Source: Clostridia bacterium
GTDB taxonomy: Bacteria > Bacillota > TC1 > UBA5767
DNA: 64,000 bases
Direction of reading: 5' to 3'
NCBI GenBank assembly: GCA_016887505.1
Contig: CP069393.1
Coordinates: 682,001 to 746,000 of the forward strand
This document shows, piece after piece, positions 41,498-47,101 of this stretch (positions within the stretch are counted from its first letter, which is position 1; the number at the start of each line of letters is the position of its first letter). Made by a program: the position numbers and the translations under genes. Below the pieces are notes generated by a model. The model was not told the origin of the DNA. It saw only the letters and a program-made list of their open reading frames with translations, and did not search any database.

Positions 41498-41523
41498 AAA
41501 AGTGGGCTATGAGCCCACTTTTA
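41498..41523 (-). terminator. Intrinsic terminator in the leader of the rimP–nusA–infB operon (attenuator candidate)
   Basis: 11-bp stem AAAAGTGGGCT / AGCCCACTTTT with ATG loop; the minus strand ends in five T. It lies between a consensus promoter (41547-41575) and rimP (start 41472), so all transcripts from that promoter must pass it. Confidence 0.82.
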
Positions 41524-41546
41524 CTGTCGTCAATTCATTTCTATTA

Positions 41547-41575
41547 ATTATAATGCATAGTTGTAACTTTTACAA
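41547..41575 (-). promoter_or_regulatory. Promoter of the rimP–nusA–infB operon
   Basis: Minus strand TTGTAA at 41570-41575, a 17-nt spacer, perfect TATAAT at 41547-41552. The predicted start is about 17 nt before the hairpin at 41523. Confidence 0.82.
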
Positions 41576-41691: not shown

Positions 41692-42174
41692 TTAGATGAA
41701 TCGTTCAAAACGTTCTTGATCAACACCACATATTGGGCAACGTTTGGGGGGCTGATCCTTTGCCATAAGATATCCACAAACCTTGCATCGATACACTGGA
41801 TAAGCAAGTCCTTGATCGGATAGTTTTGCATCAACCAGATTTGACACAGCTTTTTTCCGTCGTCTTTCCGGTATTGAACGGACACTTTTGGTCCCAGCAA
41901 ATACTTCTTCGTCTACATACAAGGCACAATAGCAGGCACCATACTCTGCCAAATCATCATCCCGATAATCACAGGGACAGATAAGGTCCATATCGTCTTC
42001 CTTTTTCCCAACTGAAAGGCGACAGGGGCAGGATTGGTATCCATAACGATCTTGGTTTTCCAATAATCCCTTTAAGAGCATGTTTACAAATTCCCGGTCT
42101 GGGTTTAAATAATATCCCTTACCAGCAATTTCATTTTCAATTTGCTGATACAGTTTTTCAATCCGTTTTTCCAT
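41692..42174 (-). CDS. Ferredoxin-thioredoxin reductase catalytic domain fused to a rubredoxin-like domain
   Basis: 160 residues. The N-terminal ~95 match the catalytic (beta) chain of ferredoxin:thioredoxin reductase, with CPC (C49, C51), CPC (C66, C68) and CYC (C81, C83), the ligand and disulfide cysteines of its [4Fe-4S] site. A rubredoxin-like knuckle follows: CKVC (C130, C133) and CPIC (C146, C149). The ATG at 42174 with AAGGGG upstream starts at MEKRIEKLY. It lies 1 nt after a glutaredoxin-like gene, pointing to a ferredoxin- or rubredoxin-linked disulfide reductase. The plant-type variable subunit is absent, as in other anaerobes. Confidence 0.88.
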   Translation of the reverse strand: MEKRIEKLYQQIENEIAGKGYYLNPDREFVNMLLKGLLENQDRYGYQSCPCRLSVGKKEDDMDLICPCDYRDDDLAEYGACYCALYVDEEVFAGTKSVRSIPERRRKKAVSNLVDAKLSDQGLAYPVYRCKVCGYLMAKDQPPKRCPICGVDQERFERFI

Positions 42175-42175
42175 C

Positions 42176-42457
42176 CTATTTCCCCTTGATGATTTCTTCA
42201 ATTTTTTCTGGTTTATAACCTTGAATCGAATCTTTACCATCAATAACTAGCAATGGAAAAGCCTGCTCACTTACATATGATACCATTTCTTCTAATGCTT
42301 TTTCTTGGTCTGAAGAATCCAAATTATCTACAAAAACATAGTCATAGGCAACACCATGTTCGTTAAGAAGATCCTTAGTTTTTTTGCACCAGCCACAAGT
42401 AGACAATGCGTAAAGCTGTAACGTTACCCCTTCATTTCCATCTACATGAATCCACAT
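42176..42457 (-). CDS. Glutaredoxin-like protein
   Basis: 93 residues, thioredoxin fold with CGWC active site (C21, C24) after LQLYALST, a glutaredoxin/NrdH-like pattern. The cis-Pro region is AFPLLVIDG and the end is YKPEKIEEIIKGK. The ATG at 42457 has AAAGGAG 7 nt upstream; the ATG six codons before overlaps this site. The adjacent FTR-like gene is the obvious candidate to reduce it. Confidence 0.88.
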   Translation of the reverse strand: MWIHVDGNEGVTLQLYALSTCGWCKKTKDLLNEHGVAYDYVFVDNLDSSDQEKALEEMVSYVSEQAFPLLVIDGKDSIQGYKPEKIEEIIKGK

Positions 42458-42483
42458 ATGTTTTCTCCTTTTCATTTATTAAT

Positions 42484-43417: not shown

Positions 43418-46400
43418 TTATCCAAAAAGACTCATCTGTTCGCTTTCAGGAAGTCCTTCGAGCATACCCATTTCTCGCATTTTATCTACTACCGTTGTGC
43501 TTATTCTTGTCCGCAACCGCAGATCTTCAATAGACATAATTTTATTGCTATCCCGCACTTCCACAATACTATTTGCGGCCTTCGTTCCAAGCCCCGGTAT
43601 CGTATTAAAAGGTGGAAGTAGTGCATTTTCTTCAACTATGAAATCACTAGCACTAGATCGATACAGGTCCATTGGCAACAGTTTTATACCTCTCGCATAC
43701 ATTTCAAGAGCAATTTCCAATATCGTCTCTACATTTTTCTCGCGAGCCGATAATCTCGGTAATGCATGCAATTTTTTCATCTCTTTTTTGATATTTCTGG
43801 GACCTTGTCGGATGATATCCAAATCAAATTCATCTGCTCTAACTGTGAAGTAGGTAGCGTAGAAAGCCTCTGGATAATTAATCTTATACCAAGCAATCCG
43901 GAAAGCCATCGTGACATAGGCTACTGCATGCGCCTTGGGGAACATATACTTGATTTTCTTGCAAGAATCTATATACCAAGCCGGAACCTCATGCTCTTTC
44001 ATATCCTGCTCGTATTCTGGTTTTAAGCCTTTCCCCTTTCTCACATCCTCCATGATCCGAAAGGCTACGATTGGCTCTAGTTTTTTATGCAACAAGTATG
44101 ACATAATGTCGTCCCTTGTTGATATGGCTTCAGACAGTTTAGCAGTCTTATTCACAATTAGATCTTGGGCATTATTCAACCAAACATCCGTTCCATGAGA
44201 AAATCCTGATATACGAACCAACTCAGAAAAAGCCTTCGGTCTTGTGTCCTGGAGCATCTGACGAACAAACTTTGTGCCAAACTCCGGAATACCTAGCGAG
44301 CCCACGTCAAGTGGTAAAATATTGCAATCTAAATCCAGTGCGTCGGCTGAGGAAAATAAGGATAGTGTAGCTGGATCATCTAGTGGAATGGATTTTGCAT
44401 TTGTTCCTGTTAAATCTTCCAACATTTTGATTGCCGTTGGATCATCGTGACCCAGCAAATCTAGTTTAACCAAGCTGGCATCGATGGAATGGTAGTCAAA
44501 ATGACTCGTCCTAATGTCTGAATTCGTATCTTCAGCGGGTCTTTGAAGCGGAGTAAAACAGTTTACGTCTTCCCCTTTGGGCAATACGATAATACCACCT
44601 GGATGTTGGCCTGTGGTTCTCTTAACACCTGTACAGCCACTCGCTAAAGCCGCTAGTTGCGCATTTCGAGCGTTAGTAACCCCATTTTCTTCTAAGAATT
44701 TCTTTACAAATCCAAATGCCGTTTTTTCAGCAACAGTTGCTATGGTTCCAGCTTTAAAAACATTGTCTTTGCCAAATAGAACCTCGGTATATTTATGAAT
44801 CGTTGTCTGATAATCTCCGGAAAAGTTAAGGTCAATATCCGGAATTTTATCTCCATTAAATCCAAGAAATGTCTCAAATGGAATTTCATGGCCATCCTTG
44901 ATCATTTTAGTACCACATTTTTCACAAACTCGGTCTGGTAAATCGGCACCACAGCCGACCGAACCATCTGTAATAAATATATTGTTATGGCAGCTGGGAC
45001 AGCTATAGTGAGGAGCCAAGGGATTCACTTCCGTGATTCCTAACAAGGTGGCCACAAACGATGACCCTACTGATCCTCTTGAACCCACTAAGTATCCATC
45101 CTGATTGGATTTTTTCACCAGTTTTTCAGCAATCAGATAAAGAACTGAGAATCCATTTTCAATAATTGAACCTAGTTCTCTTTCCATACGCTCTTCTACA
45201 ATTTGAGGCAAAGGCTCTCCATAGAGTTCAATCGCTCTTGCCGCACAAGTAGTTCTAATTTCTTGCTCTGCTCCCTCAATCTTAGGTGGATGCAGTTTTG
45301 TCTGAACTGGATTCATATCTTTTTCAATGCTTTGACAAATCTTTATAGGATTATCGATAACAATCTCTCTCGCCTTTTCCTCATCAAGGTAAGAAAATTC
45401 CTGCAACATTTCTTCTGTTGTACGGTAATACAGCGGTGGCTGTGTTGTATCCTTATATCCCTGCCCTGTTTGAATAATCTTACGATATATTTCATCCTCT
45501 GGATCTAAAAAATGAACGTCGCCAGTAGCAACAACAGGTATATCTAATTTCTCACCGAGTTCAACAATCTGTCGATTCAAATTTTCCAATTCTTGGCGTG
45601 ATGAAACCATGTTTTCCCGTAGCATAAACTCATTGTTACCAATGGGTTGGATTTCGAGATAATCATAGTACCTTGCTATGTTTTCGATGGTCTCTGTATC
45701 CTCGCCCCGATACAAGGCCTGGAAAAGTTCTCCTGCCTCACATGCGCTCCCAATGATCAGTCCTTCCCTCGATGCGTCCAGTTCACTTCGTACTACCCTG
45801 GGTTTTCGATAGAAATGATTCAGATTGGAAGAAGTTACCAATTTATATAAGTTGGGAAAGCCCTTGGGATTCTTAACTAGAATAATCATATGATACGGTC
45901 TAGCTTTGGGATCCTTCCCTTCTCGGTCATCAATATAATAGGCTTCCATACCATAAACTACATTGACATCGAGTCCTTCTTTTTTAACAATAGTATGTGC
46001 CGCAGGAAATGCTTGCACCCCACCATGATCTGTGACGGCCATATAGGGATGTTTCCAATCGTGCGCTCTTTTCAGGGCCATCTTAAGATCGGTCATTCCA
46101 TCTAAAGCACTCATGGTAGTATGCAGATGTAGCTCAACTCTTTTCTGCTCAGAATCATCCGTTCTCGTTTTATGTTCCGCTCGGTTAATATCCTTGAGCA
46201 TCATGGTGAGTTCTTGGCTGTATCGGTCAGTCTGAACCGATCCACGTACCTTCACAAACTGATTGTTGCTCATATTCACATTAAATGATTCATTTTCTTG
46301 CGTAAAATATTTAACTGTTATGCCACTTTTCTTATCGACTAAATCAAAAGTAACGAGCGTTCTTCCACTTCTCAGTTCTCTAATCTCGAGGTTAATTACC

Positions 46401-47083
46401 TTACCTTGTAACGTTGCACTTCTTTCTTCTTCTTTGATGGAGAAAATTGGCTGAGGTGCCTCCTTGATTTGTCTTCCCAGTAGCACAGCACCATTGCTTG
46501 AAGATTCTTTCTTCGAATCCATATTTTGATTAGATTCATGTATGGTGAGTAAACGATCTTTTTCAAGCACCTCTAGACTCTTGCTAAAATCCTTATCTTC
46601 ATCTAGATGAAAAACGACATCTTTTAGCCAAGGCATCATGATATGTATCATCTCATAGATTGAACGCTTATGTTTTTCTTTTTTAAAGTAGTCAACAGCC
46701 AGTACAACATTAAGGCCTAAATCGAGCATATCATCTTTTATCTCAATAGTAGATATACATCCTTTAAGCAAAAAGGCCTTTTGCCCCATTTCCTCTCGTA
46801 AAACTTCTAGAAAACGGTCTCTTGTCGCCTCACACCAATTTTCTCTTTCTATGCTTGGCCACATACATACAGTATCCAACTTCAGTAATTCTTCCATGCC
46901 TGTAGCCAACTTAAGTAACATTTCATGCGGTATCGTACTCACGCCATTCATAAGCAAGAGCATCTTTTTTTTCTTTTCATACAGGTATACTTTAGAGAAC
47001 TGTAATTGATCTATCTTATCCAAATACATTTTGGGTAGACTTGCTTGTTCAGCTGCTTTTTGCAACAGTTTTCTCGTATCCAT
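43418..47083 (-). CDS. polC: DNA polymerase III PolC-type alpha subunit lacking the embedded exonuclease domain
   Basis: 1221 residues; typical PolC is about 1430. N-terminal region (1-215), OB fold (about 220-305), PHP domain (about 314-530), polymerase core. PHP metal ligands look complete: H319, H321, D352, H353, E380, H398, C448, D522, H524. Between GMEAYYIDD and YHMIILVKN, where other PolCs carry the ~190-residue DEDD exonuclease, there are only about ten residues. Zinc knuckle C695/C698/C720/C723; polymerase aspartates D749, D751 and D875. ATG 47083 has AGAGGAG 4-6 nt upstream. It follows proS by 18 nt. Essential leading-strand polymerase. Confidence 0.95.
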   Translation of the reverse strand: MDTRKLLQKAAEQASLPKMYLDKIDQLQFSKVYLYEKKKKMLLLMNGVSTIPHEMLLKLATGMEELLKLDTVCMWPSIERENWCEATRDRFLEVLREEMGQKAFLLKGCISTIEIKDDMLDLGLNVVLAVDYFKKEKHKRSIYEMIHIMMPWLKDVVFHLDEDKDFSKSLEVLEKDRLLTIHESNQNMDSKKESSSNGAVLLGRQIKEAPQPIFSIKEEERSATLQGKVINLEIRELRSGRTLVTFDLVDKKSGITVKYFTQENESFNVNMSNNQFVKVRGSVQTDRYSQELTMMLKDINRAEHKTRTDDSEQKRVELHLHTTMSALDGMTDLKMALKRAHDWKHPYMAVTDHGGVQAFPAAHTIVKKEGLDVNVVYGMEAYYIDDREGKDPKARPYHMIILVKNPKGFPNLYKLVTSSNLNHFYRKPRVVRSELDASREGLIIGSACEAGELFQALYRGEDTETIENIARYYDYLEIQPIGNNEFMLRENMVSSRQELENLNRQIVELGEKLDIPVVATGDVHFLDPEDEIYRKIIQTGQGYKDTTQPPLYYRTTEEMLQEFSYLDEEKAREIVIDNPIKICQSIEKDMNPVQTKLHPPKIEGAEQEIRTTCAARAIELYGEPLPQIVEERMERELGSIIENGFSVLYLIAEKLVKKSNQDGYLVGSRGSVGSSFVATLLGITEVNPLAPHYSCPSCHNNIFITDGSVGCGADLPDRVCEKCGTKMIKDGHEIPFETFLGFNGDKIPDIDLNFSGDYQTTIHKYTEVLFGKDNVFKAGTIATVAEKTAFGFVKKFLEENGVTNARNAQLAALASGCTGVKRTTGQHPGGIIVLPKGEDVNCFTPLQRPAEDTNSDIRTSHFDYHSIDASLVKLDLLGHDDPTAIKMLEDLTGTNAKSIPLDDPATLSLFSSADALDLDCNILPLDVGSLGIPEFGTKFVRQMLQDTRPKAFSELVRISGFSHGTDVWLNNAQDLIVNKTAKLSEAISTRDDIMSYLLHKKLEPIVAFRIMEDVRKGKGLKPEYEQDMKEHEVPAWYIDSCKKIKYMFPKAHAVAYVTMAFRIAWYKINYPEAFYATYFTVRADEFDLDIIRQGPRNIKKEMKKLHALPRLSAREKNVETILEIALEMYARGIKLLPMDLYRSSASDFIVEENALLPPFNTIPGLGTKAANSIVEVRDSNKIMSIEDLRLRTRISTTVVDKMREMGMLEGLPESEQMSLFG

Positions 47084-47101
47084 TTTTCTCCTCTGGGACA
47101 A

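Follow-up and report, generated by a model that had tools for sequence, protein, structure and literature searches.

Biochemical work on ferredoxin:disulfide reductases (FDRs) and their redoxins is, to our knowledge, limited to Methanosarcina. The rubredoxin of the M. acetivorans FDR reportedly holds an iron centre, a ferredoxin-linked disulfide-reducing relay has been reported for this close homologue of the protein studied here, and the class III ribonucleotide reductase of Methanosarcina barkeri is said to receive its electrons via the redoxin NrdH. The M. acetivorans enzyme is reportedly the subject of Kumar et al. 2015 (PDB 4tpu), and Prakash et al. (2018, J Biol Chem) are said to have found that FDR reduces methanoredoxin and one thioredoxin, with homologues widespread in bacteria.

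The FDR of M. acetivorans reduces a thioredoxin and FDRs are found in both archaea and bacteria (PMC6262447). The same article cites Wei et al. 2015 for an FDR that supplies the class III enzyme among the ribonucleotide reductases, that of M. barkeri, with electrons. Methanoredoxin works with the thiol of coenzyme M (PMC7278568).

Gene layout of the locus

The window, which is the whole stretch of 64,000 nucleotides analysed from contig CP069393.1 of a Clostridia bacterium, carries on its minus strand a glutaredoxin-like gene followed by a gene combining the catalytic domain of ferredoxin:thioredoxin reductase (FTR) with a rubredoxin domain. Judged by sequence and homology, this pair is very probably a bacterial FDR together with its methanoredoxin-like redoxin, passing electrons from ferredoxin through the rubredoxin and a 4Fe-4S/dithiol site to the redoxin and its clients. 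The features of the locus are as follows.

42176 to 42457, minus strand: glutaredoxin-like (methanoredoxin/NrdH/YruB-type) protein of 93 aa with a CGWC active site (Pfam: PF00462; nearest solved structures 3nzn and 5cax)
41692 to 42174, minus strand: putative FDR of 160 aa, an FTR catalytic domain with a C-terminal rubredoxin (full-length match and top fold match to 4tpu)
41896 to 42162, minus strand: FTR catalytic (FeThRed_B) domain, residues 5-93, with six cysteines (Pfam: PF02943, 4.2e-24)
41704 to 41793, minus strand: rubrerythrin-type rubredoxin domain, residues 128-157, with four cysteines (Pfam: PF21349 RUBY_RBDX, 3.8e-14)
41498 to 41522, minus strand: terminator-like hairpin lying between the FDR and rimP genes; its stem has 11 pairs, 5 of them G-C, and a T-rich tail comes after it

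The gene order on the minus strand is polC, a DUF1638 gene (43288-42611), the glutaredoxin-like gene (42457-42176), the FTR-rubredoxin gene (42174-41692) and rimP. The initial annotation had placed the two genes 1 nt apart, as they are, with the glutaredoxin stop ending at 42176 and the FTR start codon ATG at 42174. The pair does interrupt the polC-rimP neighbourhood, but the DUF1638 gene is inserted there too. A shared promoter had also been proposed; the minus-strand scan just 5' of the glutaredoxin gene gave no promoter-like site, which leaves this proposal without backing. Rfam gave no match to an RNA element or riboswitch upstream of the pair. The list of open reading frames holds longer alternative starts at 42475 for the glutaredoxin gene and at 42243 for the FTR gene, but the likely starts are 42457 and 42174, judging by sequence that resembles a ribosome site and by where related proteins begin; an AAGGAG-type ribosome site fits the start at 42457. 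Downstream of the pair, rimP is also found in both same-genus relatives. Two terminator-like sites were detected in the region, compared to 0.5 expected.

The DUF1638 family has no assigned function, and the gene was undetected in the short sequences flanking the loci from the same genus. Just before rimP, at 41498-41575 on the minus strand, there is a good promoter-like site with a terminator-like hairpin immediately after it and no Rfam family match; the two could form a transcription attenuator for the rimP-nusA operon. PolC itself (43418-47101, minus strand) has 1227 aa, about 218 fewer than the PolC model. Nothing interrupts its PHP domain (323-479) and an exonuclease-domain match was not found, so that PolC here appears to lack the usual proofreading insert of the DnaQ type.

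The reductase and the redoxin

Both Pfam domains of the reductase score above their curated cut-offs, and the residues expected to bind metal or to act in catalysis are intact. The six FTR cysteines (C49, C51, C66, C68, C81 and C83) and the complete four-cysteine rubredoxin site (C130, C133, C146 and C149), both pointed out previously, are present. The FTR cysteines are identical in 87 out of 87 homologues and the rubredoxin cysteines in 86-87 of them. At the position of the plant FTR histidine, 82 of the 87 sequences have a tyrosine and five a phenylalanine; the motif, which includes the last two FTR cysteines, reads CYC in the window protein and in 4tpu, compared to CHC in 7bzk. Residues 2-160 align to 4tpu (3.8e-53, about 55% identity), which is also the top match of the fold search and whose entry is titled ferredoxin-dependent disulfide reductase (Methanosarcina acetivorans). 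With a six-cysteine FTR domain, a C-terminal rubredoxin on the same chain and the active-site tyrosine, the reductase is, as far as its sequence defines it, an FDR of the M. acetivorans type.

It is not a plant-type ferredoxin:thioredoxin reductase, the heterodimer partner of which, the variable chain FtrA (Pfam: PF02941), had no match in the genome or in its order, whereas the Synechococcus control was detected. The missing chain is what would be expected for an FDR. Superposed as a whole on 4tpu, the predicted model of the reductase has an RMSD of 19.3 Å and its linker (residues 108-118) is of low confidence. Because of this linker, domain geometry from the model was rejected as unusable, and since the predicted domain arrangement fails to superpose, the model does not confirm a route from rubredoxin to cluster.

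The redoxin has the active site C21-G-W-C24 and matches the Pfam Glutaredoxin family with 2.8e-12, above the curated cut-off; the CxWC motif is kept in 84-85 of 86 homologues. Among solved structures it comes closest to 3nzn, the glutaredoxin of M. mazei, and to methanoredoxin 5cax (RMSD of 0.7-1.2 Å over 84-90 columns). NrdH-like and classical glutaredoxins can be told apart by their motifs, the latter carrying those of the glutathione (GSH) site. Here the cis-proline motif is [S/A]-F-P rather than TVP, and as in NrdH there is a G-[F/Y] motif. The glutaredoxin fold and CxWC site, found without the GSH-site motifs of classical glutaredoxins, assign the protein by its motifs to the methanoredoxin/NrdH-like class. 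Its gene is the sole Glutaredoxin-family match in the genome.

Linkage and distribution of the gene pair

To survey named genomes we used the FTR domain alone as the query, leaving the architecture free, and kept the 80 best loci, which are weighted to close homologues. In 79 of these the rubredoxin continues in the same reading frame. A glutaredoxin of the same type lies upstream on the same strand in 79 out of 80, and within 300 nt in 78, which goes beyond chance adjacency and bears out both the fused architecture and the pairing suggested by the initial annotation. The pair is neither restricted to one genome nor poorly conserved in its CXXC/CPC cysteines. Across these 80 best loci, which cover more than 20 phyla of bacteria and archaea, redoxin and FDR thus form a near-invariant two-gene cassette. 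The cases include three Methanosarcina loci; in these a redoxin with 73-85% identity to 5cax/3nzn is closely followed on its downstream side by an FDR with 89% identity to 4tpu.

Closer to the window, the pair is present in all four genomes of its family and in one genome of a sister family, and within the order these five genomes with FDR are the ones with a strong Glutaredoxin match. Only 26 out of 398 genomes of the phylum carry any FTR, so the cassette is patchy there. The FTRs of the phylum without a rubredoxin are mostly preceded by a glutaredoxin too. The pairing does not depend on the rubredoxin, since many glutaredoxin-linked FTRs (L008, L009, L115-L119 and L122) lack it.

Glutaredoxin and FDR distances are correlated with r 0.48, shared ancestry being left uncorrected, while the maximum in 1000 permutations was 0.19. 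Bacterial and archaeal members are interleaved in the FDR tree, the deep branches of which are weakly supported. A search for plasmid or phage spread of the pair gave no match in the plasmid or phage collection. As a conserved third partner, the next commonest real gene family, a copper-type P-ATPase, was rejected with only 9 of 80 loci, and a 12-locus neighbour cluster among the 80 has the look of an artefact, an antisense frame lying across the FDR gene.

There are further FTR types among the loci. L131-L136 form a second FTR catalytic group, most of them with an N-terminal zinc-ribbon-like part, and a glutaredoxin gene precedes them as well. The FTR match crosses in-frame TGA codons in L135 and L136, which suggests that these two may be selenoproteins like the FtrB_double_U family. 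In L129 and L130 the frame that holds the FTR domain is about 215 aa long and has another kind of C-terminal extension; a glutaredoxin was not found nearby.

Other thiol systems of the genome

The initial annotation had proposed a self-contained system independent of NADPH and glutathione and had asked about an NADPH-thioredoxin reductase in the genome. One is present: a canonical thioredoxin reductase (TrxR) with the NADPH-type motif (GGGDTA, HRRDAFR in L138), besides a 425-residue TrxR-Trx fusion and a thioredoxin (Trx). The redoxin and FDR are therefore a pathway parallel to the NADPH system and not a replacement for it, nor the only disulfide-reducing system of the cell. Replacement of NADPH-TrxR by the pair was also considered across the order and rejected, with all ten genomes, with or without FDR, having a TrxR over the cut-off. 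The ferredoxin link stands. Independence from glutathione is plausible from the gene content, as Glu_cys_ligase and BshC, the two thiol-synthesis families searched, had no match in the genome and the redoxin is NrdH-like.

Proposed electron route and alternative explanations

Ferredoxin, once reduced by an enzyme such as pyruvate:ferredoxin oxidoreductase (POR), the genes of which are present in the genome, would donate single electrons to the fused rubredoxin iron. From there they would pass to the special [4Fe-4S] cluster adjoining the active-site disulfide, and the two-electron-reduced dithiol of FDR would then reduce the CGWC disulfide in the adjacent redoxin. The redoxin in turn would reduce disulfides of client proteins. 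We infer the metal content, the electron order and the FDR-redoxin reaction from homologues. For the step from FDR to redoxin in particular, the gene linkage, the natural fusion 7pwe, the correlated distances and the Methanosarcina homologue all point the same way. The relay reported for that homologue and the reduction of a thioredoxin by FDR (PMC6262447) support a ferredoxin-linked disulfide-reducing relay, as first suggested. A rubredoxin reductase, named earlier as the other possible donor, is not supported.

A refinement of this route, tentative and rather unlikely in our view, is that the redoxin chiefly feeds ribonucleotide reductase and that the pair is a dedicated pathway for dNTP synthesis. 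The M. barkeri class III enzyme is fed by an FDR (Wei et al. 2015, cited in PMC6262447), the redoxin is NrdH-like in its features and the class II ribonucleotide reductase of the genome has a cysteine-rich C terminus. Yet a ribonucleotide reductase gene recurs beside the pair in none of the 80 best loci, the Trx of the genome could serve the enzyme, and f2 genomes without FDR also show matches to the family. We regard class II ribonucleotide reductase as one candidate client.

It also seems unlikely that the bacterial pair is a ferredoxin-only relay with its own clients, apart from NADPH-thioredoxin, in which the rubredoxin would sense the redox state or oxygen. More doubtful still is a rubredoxin domain acting as a structural zinc site or as an oxygen or peroxide sensor, with ferredoxin feeding the 4Fe-4S cluster directly as in plant FTR. 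Glutaredoxin-linked FTRs that lack a rubredoxin, and the domain-to-domain geometry left unsettled by the predicted model, would allow for such direct donation. Against this reading, the rubrerythrin type to which the site belongs binds iron, and an iron centre is reported for the rubredoxin of the homologue from M. acetivorans.

We consider it very improbable that FDR mainly reduces the thioredoxin of the cell, with the neighbouring glutaredoxin as one of several substrates or as a separate small-thiol enzyme: the thioredoxin reduced by the M. acetivorans FDR (PMC6262447), the use of the coenzyme M thiol by methanoredoxin (PMC7278568) and the separate Trx of this genome are in its favour, but FDR near-universally adjoins a redoxin and not a thioredoxin, a natural Grx-FDR fusion exists (7pwe), the thioredoxins of the genome have an NADPH-type reductase, and no gene for the synthesis of glutathione or bacillithiol was found among the types searched.

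Comparison with known systems

For anaerobes, the FDR and its redoxin would be a common way of reducing protein disulfides straight from ferredoxin, and bacterial hosts such as that of the window are places to seek the clients of the pair. The window copy itself is ordinary; the sole addition made here is a measure of how widespread and how strict the linkage of redoxin and FDR is.

M. acetivorans FDR (4tpu) and the window FDR share their domain order, the six FTR and four rubredoxin cysteines, the C-Y-C motif and the RR motif before the linker, and they differ in a window linker that is about ten residues shorter and in the bacterial host. Methanoredoxin 5cax and M. mazei 3nzn, whose Methanosarcina genes lie just upstream of FDR, have the fold and the STCxWCKKTK motif of the window redoxin, at 36-42% identity. 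The window comes from a bacterial host, in which use of coenzyme M is not expected, so the small-thiol activity may not apply to its redoxin. The glutaredoxin/FDR fusion of Desulfotalea psychrophila (7pwe) matches both window proteins with the same order of catalytic partners, but is a single polypeptide and has no rubredoxin domain. The catalytic chain of plant and cyanobacterial FTR (e.g. 1dj7, 7bzk) shares the FeThRed_B fold and the CPC/CPC/CxC pattern; in contrast to the window FDR it has a variable subunit, C-H-C in place of C-Y-C, no rubredoxin and a thioredoxin as its partner. By these sequence comparisons, the window pair is the bacterial counterpart of the studied archaeal pair, with an architecture already known from 4tpu, 5cax and 7pwe.
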